From: Methanolacinia petrolearia DSM 11571
GTDB taxonomy: Archaea; Halobacteriota; Methanomicrobia; Methanomicrobiales; Methanomicrobiaceae
DNA length: 64,000 nt
Assembly (NCBI RefSeq): GCF_000147875.1
Contig: NC_014507.1
Location: 1 to 64,000 of the forward strand
Direction: 5' to 3'
The position numbers and the translations under genes were made by a program. The notes beneath the pieces were generated by a model. The model saw only the letters and a program-made list of their open reading frames with translations. It ran no database searches and was not told where the DNA came from. Below, in pieces: positions 12,542 to 19,970 of this stretch; position 1 is the stretch's first letter, and each line of letters opens with the position of its first letter.

Positions 12542-13711
12542 ATGGATGTGCAGATTGAGGAGAGTAAGAGGGAACTGTCCAGGGTTCTTGAACTTCTGAA
12601 GGACGAACCGAGGGGACTCAGTATTACGGATATTTCCCGTGCCCTGAAGCTCAACCGCAACTCAGTCTCGAAATACCTGAACATGCTTCTGATCTCCGGC
12701 CATGTCGAACTTCGGAGCATCGGTGTCGCAAAGGTCTATTTTCTCTCCAAGCGTGTTCCGATATCTGCCATGCTCGACTACTCCTCCGATGCCATAGTTG
12801 TTCTGAACCGCAATATGGAGATAGTGGTGGCAAACGAATCGTTTCTCAGCCTTACAGGAAGCGAGTTCAGGGACATAATCAAGATGAAGATTGCCGGATC
12901 AGGTATACCGGTAGTCACGGACCCGGGTGTTTATAAAGAGATTGTAAACAGTTTTAAATCTGACAGCAGCTCCTCGGAGATGGAGTGGGGGGACGGTTCA
13001 GGCGAATACTTCTACAGGATAAAGTTTATCCCGACCGTTTTCGACGAGGGAAGCCCTGGTCTTACGGTTATAATCGAGGATATCAGCCAGATAAAAAAGA
13101 CTCTCCTGGTAAAGGAGAGGATGCTCGAGGAGGTCCATATGAGGGTCAGGAGCAATCTTGCCGTAGTGAACAGCCTCCTGAACATACAGTCGGGAAAGCT
13201 CCGCAATCCCGAGGCGGTAGGTGTTCTTGCCTCGACGCAGAGACGTATACAGGCGCTTGCCCTCGTTCATGAGAACCTCGGCTTGTCTGAGTCCGGTTAC
13301 ATACTTAAGGTGGAGGATTATATCAGGGAGCTTTCGGCGGATCTTGTTGAGGGGCTTGGTATAGGCAAGGGAAATATCGTTGTTAAAACCGATGCGATAG
13401 ACGTTGACCTCTATCTTGACGAGGCGGTGTACTGCGGGTTCATAATAAATGAACTTTTGATGAACTCCTATATGCATGCATTTCCTGAAGGTGCGGCCGG
13501 GGAGATCTCGGTCTCTCTCGGGGAAGACGACGGCATCTACAGGTTCAGTTATGCGGACAACGGCAGGGGTTTTCCTCCGGGTATGAACCTTGAATCGCCG
13601 GAATCGACCGGCATCATGATTATAAGGAGGCTTGTTGAGGATCAGCTCGGTGGAATTATTGAGATTCACCCCGGTCATGGTGTTGTATTTGAGATTGCGT
13701 TTGGAAAGTAG
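12542..13711 (+). CDS. HTH-PAS-histidine kinase (HisKA_2 type)
   Basis: This soluble sensor kinase has 389 residues. Residues 1-70 form a winged helix-turn-helix (SITDISRALKLNRNSVSKYLN), 75-190 a PAS domain, about 190-270 a HisKA_2 dimerisation region with His199 in EEVHMRVRSNLAVV, and 275-389 a HATPase_c domain (INELLMNSYMHAF as N-box, YADNGRGFP as G1). No membrane helix precedes the start at 12542, so it should be cytoplasmic. A longer upstream frame back to 12188 is antisense to artA and is not used. Nine bases separate it from the receiver gene, a likely partner. The DNA-binding domain fused to a kinase is unusual and suggests that it might sit on DNA itself. Confidence 0.92.
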   Translation: MDVQIEESKRELSRVLELLKDEPRGLSITDISRALKLNRNSVSKYLNMLLISGHVELRSIGVAKVYFLSKRVPISAMLDYSSDAIVVLNRNMEIVVANESFLSLTGSEFRDIIKMKIAGSGIPVVTDPGVYKEIVNSFKSDSSSSEMEWGDGSGEYFYRIKFIPTVFDEGSPGLTVIIEDISQIKKTLLVKERMLEEVHMRVRSNLAVVNSLLNIQSGKLRNPEAVGVLASTQRRIQALALVHENLGLSESGYILKVEDYIRELSADLVEGLGIGKGNIVVKTDAIDVDLYLDEAVYCGFIINELLMNSYMHAFPEGAAGEISVSLGEDDGIYRFSYADNGRGFPPGMNLESPESTGIMIIRRLVEDQLGGIIEIHPGHGVVFEIAFGK

Positions 13712-13719
13712 GGTTTTGT

Positions 13720-14121
13720 ATGAGCGGGGATGTTGAAAGAAGTGCGGATGATCCCGTAAAGATACTGATTGTTGAAGATGACGCCATAATTGCGATGGAC
13801 ATGGAGCAGGTCCTGAACGGGAAAGGCTACAAAGTGGTTGGAAGAGTCGACAGGGGGGAGAAGGCTCTTGATGCGGTTGAAGAGAAGAAGCCGGATATCG
13901 TGCTTATGGATATCAACATAAAAGGAAGCTTAAACGGCATTGATGTTGCAAAGATGCTCCTTAACGATATTCACATTAAGGTGATCTACGTTACGGCATA
14001 TTCCGATGTCAACATGAAGGAGAAGGCGTTTGAGACCGAACCGGTAGGCTATCTTATAAAGCCCGTTCGCGAGACCGAGCTTATAGACATGATAAGGCAG
14101 GCGACCGGCGGGGATTCGTGA
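13720..14121 (+). CDS. single-domain response regulator (CheY-like receiver)
   Basis: This 133-residue receiver domain has no output domain. The acidic pocket is in IVEDD (residues 17-21). The phosphoacceptor is Asp64 in VLMDINIKG, with switch Thr92 (YVTAYSD) and Lys114 (LIKPV). It starts nine bases after the kinase stop, so the two probably form a phosphorelay pair. With no DNA-binding domain, the output is either protein-protein contact or return of the signal to a DNA-binding kinase. The LNGIDVAKML stretch is typical of archaeal receivers. Confidence 0.94.
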   Translation: MSGDVERSADDPVKILIVEDDAIIAMDMEQVLNGKGYKVVGRVDRGEKALDAVEEKKPDIVLMDINIKGSLNGIDVAKMLLNDIHIKVIYVTAYSDVNMKEKAFETEPVGYLIKPVRETELIDMIRQATGGDS

Positions 14122-14176: not shown

Positions 14177-14450
14177 GTAAAATCTGAACTAAAAGAGGCG
14201 TTTACCCTTTTCGGGTCTGCCGTCTTTCGGAGGAATTATTGGGGGGTTTGTATGATTTTGAGGTTTTTAGGTGGAATTTCACTTTTCTTCGGAGGTTTGA
14301 AGTTTATGAGTTGTTTTCTTTATCGGTAGTGTCATCGAAGGAAGTCTGGGCGCTCCTTTAACACTCTGATCAATAGATTGTCTGCAGGGTATATAAATGA
14401 AGGAAATACAGTGGATTATTTCATTTAACCCCCGGGTTATACGATTGAAT
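14177..14450. repeat. direct repeat copy A (about 274 bp)
   Basis: This is an imperfect copy of 14508-14780, with a period of 330 bases. Similarity runs from a TAAAATCTGAACTAAAAG-like end through to ACGATTGAAT, with scattered substitutions and a few one-base gaps. Conserved islands are ACACTCTGATCAATAGATTG, GGGTATATAAATGAA, GTTTTCTTTATCGGTAGTG and TTCGGGTCTGCCG. No reading frame is conserved. The copy holds the putative small RNA gene listed separately. Confidence 0.9.
14193..14369 (-). ncRNA. putative small RNA, copy A
   Basis: On the minus strand a near-perfect archaeal TATA box (TTTATATA, 14390-14397) stands about 25 bases before the proposed start near 14368. The RNA would open with a closed element: outer stem GUGUUA/UGACAC around an inner AAGGAG/CUUCCUU hairpin with loop GCCCAGA. 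It ends with GGCAG-ACCC-GAAAA-GGGU-AAACGCC followed by CUCUUUU, like an intrinsic terminator. The middle is unstructured and carries two CCUCC motifs complementary to Shine-Dalgarno sequences. No known family is recognised; function and exact ends are inferred. Confidence 0.55.
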
Positions 14451-14507
14451 GAAGCCCTTCGTGAACCGGCAGGCTCTAAAATTGAAATTTATTACTTTTG
14501 ATCTTTG

Positions 14508-14780
14508 TTGAAAATTGAATTAAAAGGGGCATTTACCCTCTTCGGGTCTGCCGCCTCTCGAAGGAATTGTTGGAGGTTGTATGAGTTTAGAGGTTTCAGG
14601 TGGAATTCCTCTTCTTTTGGGGGGTTGGAGTAGTATGAGTTGTTTTCTTTATCGGTAGTGCCATGGGACGGGAGTCTGGGCAACTCCCTAACACTCTGAT
14701 CAATAGATTGCCTGCGGGGTATATAAATGAAGAAAATACTGTGGATTATCTCATTTAACCCCAGGGTTATACGATTGAAT
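14508..14780. repeat. direct repeat copy B (about 273 bp)
   Basis: This is the second copy of the repeat at 14177-14450, lying between copy A and the LysE gene. About 57 unrelated bases separate the copies. Conservation extends about 50 bases beyond the TATA box on its upstream (minus-strand) side, as if promoter and regulatory sequence were duplicated together with the RNA. Confidence 0.9.
14517..14699 (-). ncRNA. putative small RNA, copy B
   Basis: It has the same layout as copy A. The minus-strand TATA box TTTATATA is at 14720-14727, with a proposed start near 14698. The outer stem is GUGUUA/UGGCAC, the inner stem a six-pair GGGAGU/ACUCCC with loop UGCCCAG, and the terminal hairpin ACCC-GAAGA-GGGU lies inside GGCA/UGCC followed by CCUUUU. 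Stems are kept although bases on both arms differ from copy A. CCUCC recurs in the single-stranded middle (ACAACCUCCAAC). A 63-codon frame in this strand is not conserved in copy A. Confidence 0.55.
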
Positions 14781-14792
14781 AGAGTTCGTTCT

Positions 14793-15410
14793 TTATCCGA
14801 GAGTTCCGGAGATGAACCACAGCCCGAATCCTATAAGGAATATCCCGCATGCGAATATTATGCCCCTGTACATTCTCTCTGGCATAACGTTCTTTCCTTT
14901 GGAGACTCCTGCAGATACGAAGGTGAACCACCCGAGGTCCGAGAACCAGTGCCCGATCATAAATGCAGCGGCGAATATGATTCCCCCCTTCAGCCCTTCG
15001 AGAAGAAAGCCGGCCCCTGTAGTGAGCCACCAGATCCAGAAGTAGGGGTTCGTAGCCGATGTTATGATTCCCGCAAGAAAAGGTGCTGTTCCGGGCTGAA
15101 CGCTTCCGCTTCTCCCTATCTTTATATTTCGCGACGAGAGTATGTTCATCAGCCCGAATATTACGAGTACGGCACCCCCGGCAACCGCTATTTCGCTTGT
15201 ATATTCGGAAAGAACGGCGGAAATTCCGAATATAACGGCTATTGCTATTGCAAGCTCTATTGCAATGTGTCCCGACGTGACCCTCGGCCCTGCGGTCCAC
15301 CCGGACTTCAGGGATTCGTTGATCGTCGCGACAAGGGTCGGGCCGGGAACGAGGGCGCCGGTCAGGCCGATCAGGAATGAAAGCACAAAGAATTCGGGGA
15401 GTGTGAACAT
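14793..15410 (-). CDS. LysE/RhtB family exporter
   Basis: This membrane protein of 205 residues has about six helices and belongs to the LysE superfamily, whose members export amino acids or related small molecules. The N-terminal signature (LIGLTGALVPGPTLVATINESLKSGW) and the TNPYFWIWWLTTGAGFL motif in the fourth helix region are typical. The substrate cannot be inferred. The ATG at 15410 has an aggacc purine run upstream. It stands alone; the duplicated small RNA promoters lie just downstream on the same strand, so read-through from this gene could also cover them. Confidence 0.9.
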   Translation of the reverse strand: MFTLPEFFVLSFLIGLTGALVPGPTLVATINESLKSGWTAGPRVTSGHIAIELAIAIAVIFGISAVLSEYTSEIAVAGGAVLVIFGLMNILSSRNIKIGRSGSVQPGTAPFLAGIITSATNPYFWIWWLTTGAGFLLEGLKGGIIFAAAFMIGHWFSDLGWFTFVSAGVSKGKNVMPERMYRGIIFACGIFLIGFGLWFISGTLG

Positions 15411-15475: not shown

Positions 15476-16228
15476 TCAGACAGGGATTACTATCGGGCTG
15501 TTTTTAAAGTTCTCAACATGGACGTCGACATCGTAGACCTCCCGTATCGATTCCGGGGTTATAATCTCGGGCCCGCCTGCGGCGTAGATCTGTCCGTCCT
15601 TGAGAAGGACGAACTTGTCCGAGAACCGAAGCGCCGTATTGATGTCGTGCATTGTCATCACGGCGGAGACCGAGTGGCCTCTTACGACCGCCTTTATTAT
15701 TCTCAGTATCTCCTGCTGGTTCTTAAGATCGAGGCTGCTCGTAGGCTCGTCGAGAAGCATGAGTTTGGGCTCCTGGACGAGGGCTCTTGCGACACTTACC
15801 TTCTGTAGCTCTCCGCCGCTCATCTCGTCGATATATCTCATGGCAAGGTCCTCCATACGAAGGCGTTTGATAGCCGCATCGACGATCTTCAGATCGTTGT
15901 CACTTGTATTCCAGGTGATATGCGGCCTCCTGCCGAGGAGTATTGCGTCATAGGCCGTAAGACGCCCCTTTTCGCAGTGCTGGGGGACATAGCCGACTCT
16001 CCTCGCTACATTGAGAAGGTCCATCTTCATGATATCCTCGTCCTCTATCAGAATGGAACCGGCCTTCGGGTGGTGGATCTTGTTTATGCATTTCAGCAGA
16101 GTCGTCTTTCCGACACCGTTCGGCCCGAGGATTGTCATTATTTCATTTGGCTGGACATCGAAGGAGACGTCTCTTAAAACGTCCCTGCTTCTGTAGCTGA
16201 ATTCAATTCCGTTTATACTCAATATCAT
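15476..16228 (-). CDS. ABC transporter ATP-binding protein (iron complex/cobalamin type)
   Basis: This 250-residue ATPase of the FecE/BtuD/HmuV group powers import across the membrane. Walker A is GPNGVGKTT at residues 35-43, the signature is MSGGE at 136-140, Walker B is LMLLDEPTS at about 156-164, and the switch histidine follows in MTMHDIN. Its start overlaps the stop of the permease gene by four bases (ATGA), so translation is coupled. It is the last gene of the importer operon with binding protein and permease upstream. Iron-siderophore, haem and B12 importers share this ATPase type. Confidence 0.94.
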   Translation of the reverse strand: MILSINGIEFSYRSRDVLRDVSFDVQPNEIMTILGPNGVGKTTLLKCINKIHHPKAGSILIEDEDIMKMDLLNVARRVGYVPQHCEKGRLTAYDAILLGRRPHITWNTSDNDLKIVDAAIKRLRMEDLAMRYIDEMSGGELQKVSVARALVQEPKLMLLDEPTSSLDLKNQQEILRIIKAVVRGHSVSAVMTMHDINTALRFSDKFVLLKDGQIYAAGGPEIITPESIREVYDVDVHVENFKNSPIVIPV

Positions 16229-17304
16229 CTCTTATACCCCTTCAACAGCAGGTATATGAAAACCGGCGCACCGAGGAACGCGGTAAGAATCGCAACGGGG
16301 AGGACATGCGGTGCGAGGATGAGCCTGGCCGCGGTGTCGGATGCAAGGAGAAGCACCCCGCCGAATACGATCGTTGCCGGTATCAGGAACCTGTGATCGT
16401 CACCGACAATTCTTCTTGCCATATGTGGGCATACAAGGCCGACGAATCCGATTACTCCGAGGAAGGAGATGACGATTGCCGAGAGGAACGATGCAACAAT
16501 CATCCCGACGAGACGGACTCTCTCAACATTGACGCCGAGGCCTTTCGCCGTTTCGTCGCCTGCGTCAATTGCATTGTAATTCCACATGTTCATGACAAAG
16601 TAGATCGAACAGATGACCGTTGCAACGCCCATGAGAATCAGTTCGGTTCCGTGAGCTCTTGCAACATCACCGAAGCTCCAGAATACCACAGCTGCAAGCT
16701 GGGTGTCATCGGCAAAGTACTGCAGGAACATGGTTCCGGCTGTAAAAAGCGATCCTATCGCAACTCCGGCGAGGACCATGATCTCGGGAGAAGCACCCCG
16801 GATTTTTGACAGAAGAAGTATTACTCCTGTGGCGATCATCGCAAAGATGAAGGCGATTATTGTCGTAATGTATGGATTGTCGATTACGACCGCATCGGCA
16901 CCCGTGCTGTGCATGGTACCGGTTCCGAGAACAATAACAGAGAATGCCGCACCGAATGCTGCAGCATTCGATATACCCAGGGTGTACGGAGATCCGAGGG
17001 GATTCCTGAGGATCGACTGCATCGCTACGCCGGCGACTGCAAGCGCGGCACCTGCGATTATAGCGGAGATCGCCTGGGGGAATCTTATGTTCCAGATGAT
17101 CGTGTCCCACTGGGTACTGAGATTCGCTCCGAAGAGGGTCTGCGCAACTTCAAGAGGCGGTATTCCTACGGCACCGACTGATATCGAGATTATCAGGAGG
17201 ATGAACAGGAGGACTATTCCCGCTATGATGAAAGTGATCTTCTTTCCAATGTATCTGCTGTAATTTTCCGGGATTTCCCCGCCGTTAAGATGTATCTCCA
17301 CCAC
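16225..17304 (-). CDS. FecCD/BtuC-type ABC transporter permease
   Basis: This integral membrane permease has 359 residues and about ten helices. Family motifs include NIRFPQAISAIIAGAALAVAG, the long ILRNPLGSPYTLGISNAAAFG stretch and GVIGFVGLVCPHMARRIVG near the C terminus, the region that contacts the ATPase. The proposed GTG start at 17304 abuts an AGGAGG motif; a slightly later start is possible. It lies 14 bases after the nearest binding-protein gene and overlaps the ATPase. The substrate class is iron chelate or corrinoid; sequence alone does not distinguish them. Confidence 0.94.
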   Translation of the reverse strand: MVEIHLNGGEIPENYSRYIGKKITFIIAGIVLLFILLIISISVGAVGIPPLEVAQTLFGANLSTQWDTIIWNIRFPQAISAIIAGAALAVAGVAMQSILRNPLGSPYTLGISNAAAFGAAFSVIVLGTGTMHSTGADAVVIDNPYITTIIAFIFAMIATGVILLLSKIRGASPEIMVLAGVAIGSLFTAGTMFLQYFADDTQLAAVVFWSFGDVARAHGTELILMGVATVICSIYFVMNMWNYNAIDAGDETAKGLGVNVERVRLVGMIVASFLSAIVISFLGVIGFVGLVCPHMARRIVGDDHRFLIPATIVFGGVLLLASDTAARLILAPHVLPVAILTAFLGAPVFIYLLLKGYKR

Positions 17305-17318
17305 CCTCCTGAAAAAAA

Positions 17319-18452
17319 TTAGAGTTTTATCTGTGTAAAGCCAAGATTATCGTAATATGCGTTAAGTTCGTCGAATACAGGTTCTCCTACGAGGAACGTG
17401 TAGATCTCATCCGCCTTTTCGGCAGGATCAATATCGGCGAACTGGTCGGGATAAAGAACTGATCCTACATAGTATGCATCCGCAAGGACCGATCCGTAGT
17501 TGGAGGCGTAGTAATTGTAAGGGAGCACCCCGTAGACTTTGTCGGATTTTACGGCGTCAAGAGTCTGGTATGACTCGTCTGTCTTCAGTTCATCGATTGC
17601 GGAGGGTGTTGTCTGTAAGGTTCCGAGATCGACAAACAGGACTTCGGGGTTCCACTCTATTATCTTCTCCTTTGCAACGTCTGCATGCTCCGTTCCCATC
17701 TCCCCGGCGACATTATAGGCGTTTACGAATATGAAGGGCGGGTACGATGGTTCTGTCGACTGGAAACCATGCGGTCCCCTGTATGAGATTCCGCCGACAT
17801 AGGTGCTGATCTTGTCATCTTCTGCAACGGATTCGGTGCGGCCGTTGAGGTCCGCGATGCTGCTGTTGAAGAACTCGATCACATCTTTTGCACGATCCTC
17901 TTTGCCCATGACCTCTCCCATTATGGTAAGGGACTGGTACAGGTCTGATCTTTCTACACTAAGACTTCCGTATGTAAGCGCAACTACCGGTATTCCTGTC
18001 TTATCCTGGAGTTCGTCGATTTCACTTGCGGACGTAGGATTGGATTTGAATATGACTTCTGGGTTGCACGCGATAATCTTCTCGGGATCATCGGCTCCGC
18101 GGTACTCACCTATCAGCGGATAATTCTTGAACTGGGTATTCGCTATCGCATAAGGTCTTCCTTCAAGTTGCTGTTCTTCGATCTCGATATCGTCGACACC
18201 GACTATCTTGTCCTGTGCCTCCAGGTATGTCAGGAGTCTGAGAGTTCCTGAACCGGAGCATACAACCGATTCAGGGTTTTTAGGAACTGTAACCTCTCTT
18301 CCGAGCGCATCGGTAATAGTGACGGTCTCTGAGACAGCGGAGCCGCCTGATGTTTCACCTGCGGTGCTGTCGGTACCTGTGCACCCTGCAAAAAAGGCTG
18401 TTACTGCCATTAATACCAGTAATACTGATAATAAGACGATTTTTTTAGACAT
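17319..18452 (-). CDS. ABC importer substrate-binding lipoprotein, copy 1
   Basis: This 377-residue extracytoplasmic binding protein of the FecB/BtuF type starts with a lipoprotein signal (hydrophobic helix then FAGCTG; Cys24 as lipid site). It carries TITDALGREVTVPKNPESVVC, the usual start of the first lobe, and a KIIEWNPEVLFVDL motif in the second lobe. ATG at 18452 follows GGTGATT. It is closely similar over its whole length to the protein at 18837-19970, with identical signal peptide; the upstream ~200 bases are also duplicated. It directly precedes the permease gene. Differences between the copies cluster in the second and ligand-facing parts, which may mean different ligands. Confidence 0.94.
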   Translation of the reverse strand: MSKKIVLLSVLLVLMAVTAFFAGCTGTDSTAGETSGGSAVSETVTITDALGREVTVPKNPESVVCSGSGTLRLLTYLEAQDKIVGVDDIEIEEQQLEGRPYAIANTQFKNYPLIGEYRGADDPEKIIACNPEVIFKSNPTSASEIDELQDKTGIPVVALTYGSLSVERSDLYQSLTIMGEVMGKEDRAKDVIEFFNSSIADLNGRTESVAEDDKISTYVGGISYRGPHGFQSTEPSYPPFIFVNAYNVAGEMGTEHADVAKEKIIEWNPEVLFVDLGTLQTTPSAIDELKTDESYQTLDAVKSDKVYGVLPYNYYASNYGSVLADAYYVGSVLYPDQFADIDPAEKADEIYTFLVGEPVFDELNAYYDNLGFTQIKL

Positions 18453-18836: not shown

Positions 18837-19970
18837 TTAGACTGCGATTCTTGTAAATGCAGTGTTGTTGAAGGCGATGTTCATCTCATCGAAGACTGGC
18901 TCGCCTACAAGGAAAGTGTAGATCTCGTCTGCCTTTGCTGCAGGATCGATATCGGAGAACTGTTCAGGATAGAGTATCGTTCCGATATAATAGGCATCGG
19001 CAATAACGGAGCCGTGGTTTGATGTGTACCAGTTGTATGGCAGAACTCCGTAGACTTCATCCGATTTCACTGCATCGAGAGTCTGGTATGACTCGTCTGT
19101 CTGCAATTCATCTATTGCCGAGGGTGTGGTCTGGAGCGTCGAGAGATCAACGAAGAGTACGTCGGGGTTCCACTCTATTATCTTCTCCTTTGCAACGTCT
19201 GCATGCTCCGTTCCCATCTCTCCGGCTACGTTATAGGCATCTACGAACATGAAAGGCGGGTACGATGGTTCAGTTGACTGGAAGCCATGTGGTCCCCTGT
19301 ATGCGATTCCACCTATATAGGTGCTGATCTTGGCATCTTCGGCTACGGATTCGGTACGAGCGTTGAGGTCTGCGATGCTGCTGTTGAAGAAACCGATTAT
19401 ATCTTTTGCACGATCCTCTTTGCCCATGACCTCTCCCATCAGGGTGAGAGCCTGGTACATGTCAGCCCTGTTAACTCCGAGATCACCGTAGTTGAGGGCG
19501 ACTACAGGAATTCCTGTCTTATCCTGTAGTTCATCGGCATCCGATGCGGATGTAACATATGTTTTGAATATTACATCGGGGTTGCATGCAATGATCTTCT
19601 CGGGGTCGTCAGCTCCCCGGAATTCACCGATCAGCGGGTATTCCCTGAACTGCGGGTTTGCAAGTGCGTAGGGTCTCGCATCGAACTTTGTTTCTTCAGT
19701 CTCAATGTCGTCGACACCGACGATCTTGTCTTCAGCCTGTAAATACGTCAGGTACCTGAGACATCCCGAACCAGAACAAACTACGGATTCCGGATTTTTC
19801 GGGACCGTAACCTCTCTTCCGAGCGCATCGGTAATAGTGACGGTCTCTGAGACCGTTGAACCGCCCGGTGTTTCACCTGCTGTGCTGCCGTCACTAGTAC
19901 ACCCTGCAAAAATGGCTGTTAATGCCATTAATACCAGTAATACTGATAATAAGACGATTTTTTTAGACAT
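18837..19970 (-). CDS. ABC importer substrate-binding lipoprotein, copy 2
   Basis: This protein has 377 residues, the same length as copy 1 and with the same signal peptide and lipobox (FAGCTS, Cys24). Long stretches such as VTITDALGREVTVPKNPES and GPHGFQSTEPSYPPF are identical between copies. It lies upstream of copy 1, separated from it by the methyltransferase remnant and the duplicated leader, so it has its own promoter. Whether both proteins deliver to the single permease/ATPase pair is inference, but no second permease is present. Start ATG at 19970 follows GGTGATT. Confidence 0.94.
   Translation of the reverse strand: MSKKIVLLSVLLVLMALTAIFAGCTSDGSTAGETPGGSTVSETVTITDALGREVTVPKNPESVVCSGSGCLRYLTYLQAEDKIVGVDDIETEETKFDARPYALANPQFREYPLIGEFRGADDPEKIIACNPDVIFKTYVTSASDADELQDKTGIPVVALNYGDLGVNRADMYQALTLMGEVMGKEDRAKDIIGFFNSSIADLNARTESVAEDAKISTYIGGIAYRGPHGFQSTEPSYPPFMFVDAYNVAGEMGTEHADVAKEKIIEWNPDVLFVDLSTLQTTPSAIDELQTDESYQTLDAVKSDEVYGVLPYNWYTSNHGSVIADAYYIGTILYPEQFSDIDPAAKADEIYTFLVGEPVFDEMNIAFNNTAFTRIAV

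Follow-up and report, generated by a model that had tools for sequence, protein, structure and literature searches.

Duplicated small RNA genes in Methanolacinia and their possible control by a winged-helix/FHA regulator and Ser/Thr kinase locus

Two tandem elements in the genome of Methanolacinia petrolearia DSM 11571 belong to a family of small RNA genes that have in common a promoter with a palindromic operator, a 5′ stem and a linker motif, and promoters of this type are found together with a locus for a winged-helix/FHA (wHTH-FHA) regulator and a kinase. These features were established by sequence comparison. As an explanation, we propose that a kinase-controlled wHTH-FHA activator would turn on sibling trans-acting sRNAs of ~182 nt, which would then block translation. 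We put the probability of this reading at about 0.6; transcription, binding and targets have not been shown.

Two tandem elements and their promoter

The stretch of DNA analysed (the window) comprises bases 1-64000 of a single-contig genome of 2,843,290 bp. Between positions 14180 and 14780, the minus strand carries two elements of ~270 bp in head-to-tail order, immediately following a gene for a LysE-type translocator (14793..15410, minus strand; PF01810, E 4e-25), which is the immediate upstream neighbour and lies outside the RNA. A response-regulator gene (13720-14121, plus strand) ends next to the RNA elements. The window also carries tandem paralogous genes for ABC substrate-binding lipoproteins, apparently for iron or corrinoid uptake (17319-18452 and 18837-19970), adjoined by a permease gene (16225-17304) and an ATPase gene (15476-16228). 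Alignment of the repeats at 14510-14780 and 14180-14450 gave an identity of 78-88% per block and 85% overall (~270 bp aligned), which bears out a first-pass annotation that had described two diverged duplicate copies.

Read 5′ to 3′ on the minus strand, each copy carries a palindrome resembling TATAACCC(n2)GGGTTAAA, the TATA box CATTTATATA, the start GATCAGAGTGTT and a 5′ nested stem-loop, followed by an A/C-rich linker with CCUCC/CCCCCC, then GGCAGACCCGAAAAGGGUAAAUGCC and a short U-run. The predicted RNA of copy 2 has 182 nt (14520..14701, minus strand), starting at ~14696-14701 and ending past the U-run at ~14520; that of copy 1, predicted on the same basis, has 183 nt (14189..14371, minus strand). 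TATA boxes are located at 14720..14729 in copy 2 and 14390..14399 in copy 1 (both minus strand). The box is kept in all copies of the family, in agreement with the earlier claim of a minus-strand TATA box at the right distance. The ~50 bases upstream of it, also noted earlier as conserved, hold an 18-bp palindrome that the first-pass annotation had not named: TATAACCCTGGGGTTAAA in copy 2 (14754..14771) and TATAACCCGGGGGTTAAA in copy 1 (14424..14441), both given as on the minus strand.

All family members carry this 18-bp palindrome, TTTAACC-n4-GGTTAAA, at a fixed distance upstream of TATA, and all have the RNA start AUYCAGAGUGU. Within the operator, TAAC and GGTTAAATGA are invariant in nine Methanolacinia-type copies. 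The conserved form of the start, GATCAGAGTGTT, lies 29 nt past the beginning of TTTATAT; the GATCAG 5′ end of the RNA follows at this distance in eight of the nine copies and at 30 nt in the ninth. Across both families of organisms in which relatives occur, the spacing from operator to TATA to start is the same within ~1 base.

There are few other operator sites in the own genome (G000), and a control with the reversed pattern gave none. One is a perfect palindrome, TTTAACCCGGAGGTTAAA (G000:296356-296381), between an operon with an XRE-type regulator and an ABC-ATPase/HypB-like operon. At G000:1344566+ an operator and TATA box precede an ABC-2 type transporter operon, and the site is divergent from a gene taken as methanogenesis marker 14. 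Elsewhere, another kind of tandem pair with operator and TATA box was seen in G024 (C37:17383/17699) and G022 (C4:413284/413798). Its RNA start is CTAATCAGACGACCACT and it has no CCTCC; these pairs may represent a third type of RNA in the regulon.

Distribution and structure of the family

A DNA search found four copies in the own genome, the window pair plus elements at 2287751-2288030 and 787885-788214 (both minus strand). A congener (G001) likewise has four, including one pair that is tandem and syntenic, and G002 has one. A weak DNA match in another genus (G019) sits after the same LysE gene. Cassettes at this position, in two other Methanomicrobiaceae genera, number one in G019, two each in G014 and G009, and three in G003, and their RNA body can no longer be aligned with the Methanolacinia copies. 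No cassette was present in the stretch read after the LysE gene in genera g3, g5, g6, g7 and g9.

Two profiles were used, R1 (15 sequences, no structure) and R2 (18 sequences, both families); copy 2 is the best own-genome match to both, and copy 1 is also matched. R1 recovered more members within the home family and weak matches elsewhere in the order, among them full-length single-copy relatives in Methanoregula (genus g18, family f5). The Methanoregula RNA starts with GATCAGAGTGT and has a GAGUGU../..CACUC stem, and the relatives examined lie downstream of an msrA-like gene. At E <= 0.001, R2 had matches in 60 of 232 genomes from the order. It gave no matches outside the order: all 30 matched genomes, among 393 drawn from the phylum, belong to it, and false positives at this threshold are therefore rare. 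A scan with Rfam release 15 gave no match in the window at the gathering score and none at E <= 1 in six loci that hold family members, so that the earlier statement that no known RNA family could be recognised stands under both strict and permissive searching.

The predicted full-length RNAs, taken at their fixed lengths of 182 and 183 nt, fold more stably than dinucleotide shuffles, with z = -2.57 for copy 2 and -3.12 for copy 1. The 5′ nested stem-loop of copy 2 (14651..14700, minus strand) has the form AUC-AGUGUU..GGGAG/CUCCC..GGCACU-GAU, and a corresponding fold is predicted for copy 1 (14322..14370, minus strand). In 25 members, with stem partners taken from each sequence's minimum-energy fold, almost all positions of the 5′ arm have a partner in a downstream arm. 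The outer part, AGUGU, is conserved, and positions 11-16 of the 5′ arm show mostly five to seven standard pair types each. When arms were swapped between members in unselected windows, cognate arms paired at -16.8 kcal/mol versus -12.4 kcal/mol for non-cognate ones (0/50000 permutations), and the inner arm alone gave 81/50,000. RNAalifold detected little covariation in an alignment of nine Methanolacinia-type sequences, with a single pair changed on both sides, because these sequences are too alike; the covariation support comes from the other genera. There the inner sequence changes completely and still pairs. The first-pass annotation had claimed that the pairing survives substitutions on both arms, and the stems of the homologues passed this check.

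A 3′ hairpin followed by a U-run, as described earlier, is present in both window copies (14522..14558 in copy 2, where it is terminator-like, and 14191..14230 in copy 1; minus strand, from fold and alignment). It has the form GGCA-GA-CCC..GGG-UAAA-UGCC plus a short U-run, and the GGCA/UGCC closing pairs are retained in 8/9 Methanolacinia-type copies. In the Methanoregula relatives, a second, long hairpin presents a near-invariant ten-base loop, NNCRCUUUCC, on a covarying stem (including loci L174-L179 and L195-L213), and this loop is a likely contact site.

The elements thus meet the sequence criteria for a trans-acting small RNA gene, namely an own promoter, a conserved structure, a terminator and no conserved ORF. 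The proposal that they are small RNA genes gains support because promoter, start site and 5′ stem are all retained in homologues from further genera and from a second family.

The linker as antisense of translation starts

Each window copy carries two putative anti-initiation modules in its linker (all minus strand). Module A of copy 2, CUCAUACUACUCCAACCCCCC (14619..14639), is kept in Methanolacinia-type copies, and its module B, CUCAUACAACCUCC (14572..14585), is the reverse complement of GGAGG-UUGU-AUGAG. The sequence of copy 1 has module A as CUCAUAAACUUCAAACCUCC (14291..14310) and module B as UCAUACAAACCCCCC (14241..14255). The suggestion that CCUCC motifs in the unstructured middle could act as anti-Shine-Dalgarno elements was strengthened by counts in 16 representative linkers: AACCTCC occurs 12 times, in 10 of them, compared with 0.49 expected from dinucleotide shuffles, and CAT-n4-10-CCYCC occurs 10 times versus 0.91 expected. 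For the complement GGAGG, there is no clear enrichment (2 versus 0.62 expected, both in one sequence). CCYCC is absent from 5/16 representatives, and the exposed loop motif of the Methanoregula relatives differs from it. The linkers of G019, G009, G014 and G003 have their own antisense-start versions, with AACCUCC 3′ of GCAUU. To judge from these motifs, the Methanomicrobiaceae linker imitates the antisense strand of a translation start, with an anti-SD that is often accompanied by an anti-AUG.

No single dominant target emerged. When the own genome was searched with the pattern GGAGGTTGTATGAG, and G009/G014/G019/G003 with AGGAGGTTTTNGNAATG, only scattered, unconvincing starts came up; neither the own genome nor g8/g2 offered any one target of strong complementarity, and plain duplex energies did not discriminate among candidates. 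The translation start of the response-regulator gene adjoining the elements (13711..13724, plus strand; GGGUUUUGUAUGAG, facing the linker stretch CUCAUACAA-CC) gave the strongest pairing with module B of copy 2 among 45 genes in the window, at -17.7 kcal/mol, and its start region is nearly unchanged in G001. We regard this mRNA as a lead only.

The lack of a dominant target, the several C-rich stretches per molecule and the several copies per genome would also suit a decoy, in which the linker would act as a sink for a protein or, globally, for mRNAs with an SD, without pairing to chosen mRNAs; AAACCAG-type repeats in g8/g2 linkers resemble a protein-binding motif. A plain decoy, however, has no need of an anti-AUG at start-codon spacing, which is what the enrichment of CAT-n4-10-CCYCC represents, and we consider this explanation unlikely, if still worth keeping in mind. 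Much less can be said for the element as a small-protein gene. A start codon in the 5′ stem of Methanolacinia-type copies does open a short minus-strand ORF (MTLPIKKTTH...), yet only the first residues are shared before the frame shifts, and the AUG is buried in the conserved stem. On the plus strand, both window copies contain an uninterrupted 25-codon ORF after GGAGG/GGGGG (MSLEVSGG...MSCFLYR). Of its 12 changed codons, however, 10 are non-synonymous; other copies have lost it, it has no conserved promoter and it mirrors the anti-initiation motifs; the plus strand resembles a ribosome site and short ORF because the linkers carry an antisense translation start. The other genera showed neither ORF. 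On the strength of the lost frames and the non-synonymous changes we reject a small protein on either strand, a reading to which we attach very little weight, and we take the short ORFs in the window for by-products of the RNA sequence. The first-pass annotation had stated that no reading frame is kept, which is nearly right: the minus-strand frame shifts, and only the 25-codon plus-strand ORF is uninterrupted in both copies. A small mobile or dispersed repeat without function could account for the multiple, tandem copies; it could not readily account for a stable place after LysE across genera, for covarying stems, or for a promoter conserved more than the body, and no inverted terminal repeats were found. 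Position, covariation and promoter conservation speak strongly against an inactive repeat, and we see practically no room for it. Our preferred reading remains that of sRNAs that would act on translation starts.

The wHTH-FHA locus and a proposed regulon

An operator of the sRNA type is also present at the locus of a putative regulator. In the own genome, a cluster runs in the order PP2C phosphatase, ArsR-type winged-helix protein with FHA, and NosD beta-helix-Ser/Thr kinase (Pfam domains PP2C; HTH_20/HTH_5 + FHA; Pkinase + NosD), with operators before the PP2C gene (G000:2646118) and behind the kinase gene (G000:2641805). The cluster also occurs in G003, G019 and G017, and the wHTH-FHA protein is present in 134/199 genomes order-wide. 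In the home family, the promoter was found in all 21 genomes that have the wHTH-FHA gene (R1, E <= 0.01) and in only one of seven that lack it. The exception, G016, matches the promoter on a contig that ends ~800 bp past the site, and because of this its cluster has possibly been cut off. Outside the family, 42 promoter sites other than sRNA-type ones were considered; 19 lie <=5 kb from a wHTH-FHA gene (0.25 expected) and 11 lie <=300 bp from one (0.03 expected). These statistics treat related genomes as independent and so overstate independence, and several arrangements and two families contribute to them. None of 14 Methanoregula sRNA sites is near a wHTH-FHA gene, so the link of that genus to the regulator rests on operator likeness only.

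In g3/g5 genomes, the operator behind the kinase gene precedes a gene for a CARDB-domain (surface) protein (L105, L118-L123), followed in G017 by MacB-like ABC transporter genes. These operator-driven CARDB genes occupy the place where g1/g2/g6/g8 have the RNA. Behind the kinase gene lies a second, longer, single-copy RNA with the same promoter and a 5′ stem, ~100-400 nt downstream of G000:2641805- and also at G003:46646+, G009:C3:361344+, G019:C8:7280+, G014:71462-, G026:C53:353+ and G007:1986231+. Most copies carry (C)GGAGGTGATG or GGAGGTGG, and genus g8 has a conserved TTGATTCRACAGAC...AATCACCAG; it may be an sRNA, a leader or a small-protein gene. A second wHTH-FHA paralogue is encoded at G000:834739-835485, with a weak operator-like site (837141-837196, E ~0.3) that is followed by a gene for a small secreted protein.

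The sRNA family could be real and act on mRNAs while its operator belongs to another regulator, with the kinase operon merely a member of the regulon. The perfect palindrome TTTAACCCGGAGGTTAAA between the XRE operon and the ABC-ATPase operon raises this possibility, since in the own genome the operator lies beside the XRE gene (G000:296358) and the XRE protein could be the true regulator; a co-regulated operon would also give the observed co-location with wHTH-FHA. Such an arrangement does not sit well, however, with the f3/f5 sites, which adjoin the wHTH-FHA gene or follow closely after it (11 of 42 within 300 bp), or with a promoter whose presence in the home family tracks that gene, although the XRE site was viewed in the own genome only. 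Another regulator is therefore improbable in our view, while remaining the rival we would least readily set aside.

In the mechanism that we favour, control by the wHTH-FHA protein, the ArsR-type winged-helix regulator with its C-terminal FHA domain would bind the palindrome and activate transcription. Archaeal activators bind upstream of TATA, and activation is inferred because the operator sits there. Phosphorylation by a membrane Ser/Thr kinase whose NosD-like beta-helix is extracytoplasmic would control the regulator, as inferred from the position of the regulator gene between the PP2C phosphatase and kinase genes. By pairing with the Shine-Dalgarno region, and often also the AUG, of several mRNAs, exposed CCUCC-type stretches of the RNA would keep ribosomes from loading at these starts. 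The 5′ stem and terminator may protect the RNA ends, and diverged copies may serve different targets. The signal would be surface stress, which we infer from the membrane kinase with its outside beta-helix and from the kinds of gene that share the operator (lipoprotein, CARDB and ABC-export). A still more tentative proposal, which we think somewhat less probable than not, is an order-wide archaeal surface-stress regulon in which a kinase sensor acts through a wHTH-FHA activator on fast-evolving sRNAs that silence many mRNAs, a counterpart of the sigma-E/sRNA system.

In that bacterial envelope-stress system, MicA and RybB are under sigma-E, and an extracytoplasmic signal there also turns on sRNAs that mask translation starts, and the sRNAs form the repressing arm of a regulon of which proteins form the other. 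Here, in contrast, the switch would be a Ser/Thr kinase and a wHTH-FHA regulator, in an archaeon, with several sibling RNAs. The Firmicutes sRNAs of the RsaE/RNAIII type resemble the present RNAs in having unpaired C-rich stretches complementary to Shine-Dalgarno sequences; no kinship with C-rich anti-SD sRNAs of this kind emerged as a match in the Rfam scan. Among archaea, sRNA162 and sRNA171 of Methanosarcina mazei are of similar length (~190 nt), with 5′ stem-loops, a single-stranded linker and a 3′ stem-loop; sRNA162 has a duplicated sibling with a conserved promoter, its linker masks a ribosome binding site, and its targets are one ArsR-regulator mRNA plus a cis target (PMC3510493). The likeness thus extends to length, stem-loops, masking linker and duplicated sibling, and the window RNAs share the design element of a linker complementary to ribosome binding sites, judging from folds and AACCTCC enrichment. 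In the accessible parts of that account, homologues are reported only in Methanosarcina species, and neither a kinase/FHA link nor a palindromic operator is described (PMC3510493). As far as this comparison goes, the similarity is one of design, not descent; no evidence of common descent was found. The Sulfolobales protein ArnA, with the kinases ArnC/ArnD, likewise combines archaeal Ser/Thr phosphorylation with control of expression by an FHA protein, but its partner is the vWA protein ArnB and it controls archaellum and DNA-damage genes (PMC6509490, PMC10470591, PMC5300886), whereas the methanogen FHA domain belongs to a winged-helix fusion protein with a link to small RNAs.

Neither the RNA family nor, in methanogens, a wHTH-FHA regulon turned up in a search of open papers. 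The extra copies, the operator palindrome, the wider regulon, the wHTH-FHA/kinase link and the SD-plus-AUG mirror go beyond the first-pass annotation, and the co-location of the wHTH-FHA/kinase locus with the sRNA-type operator-promoter is new here. To our knowledge, a target has been identified for few archaeal small RNAs and a dedicated regulator for none, and we know of an archaeal link between FHA/Ser-Thr kinase signalling and gene expression mainly from Sulfolobales. The family, whose relatives span Methanomicrobiaceae and Methanoregula, adds an RNA family missing from Rfam and joins a named operator, a candidate regulator with its kinase, and several sibling RNAs per genome. If the proposal is true, stress regulons with an RNA repressor arm would extend to Archaea.
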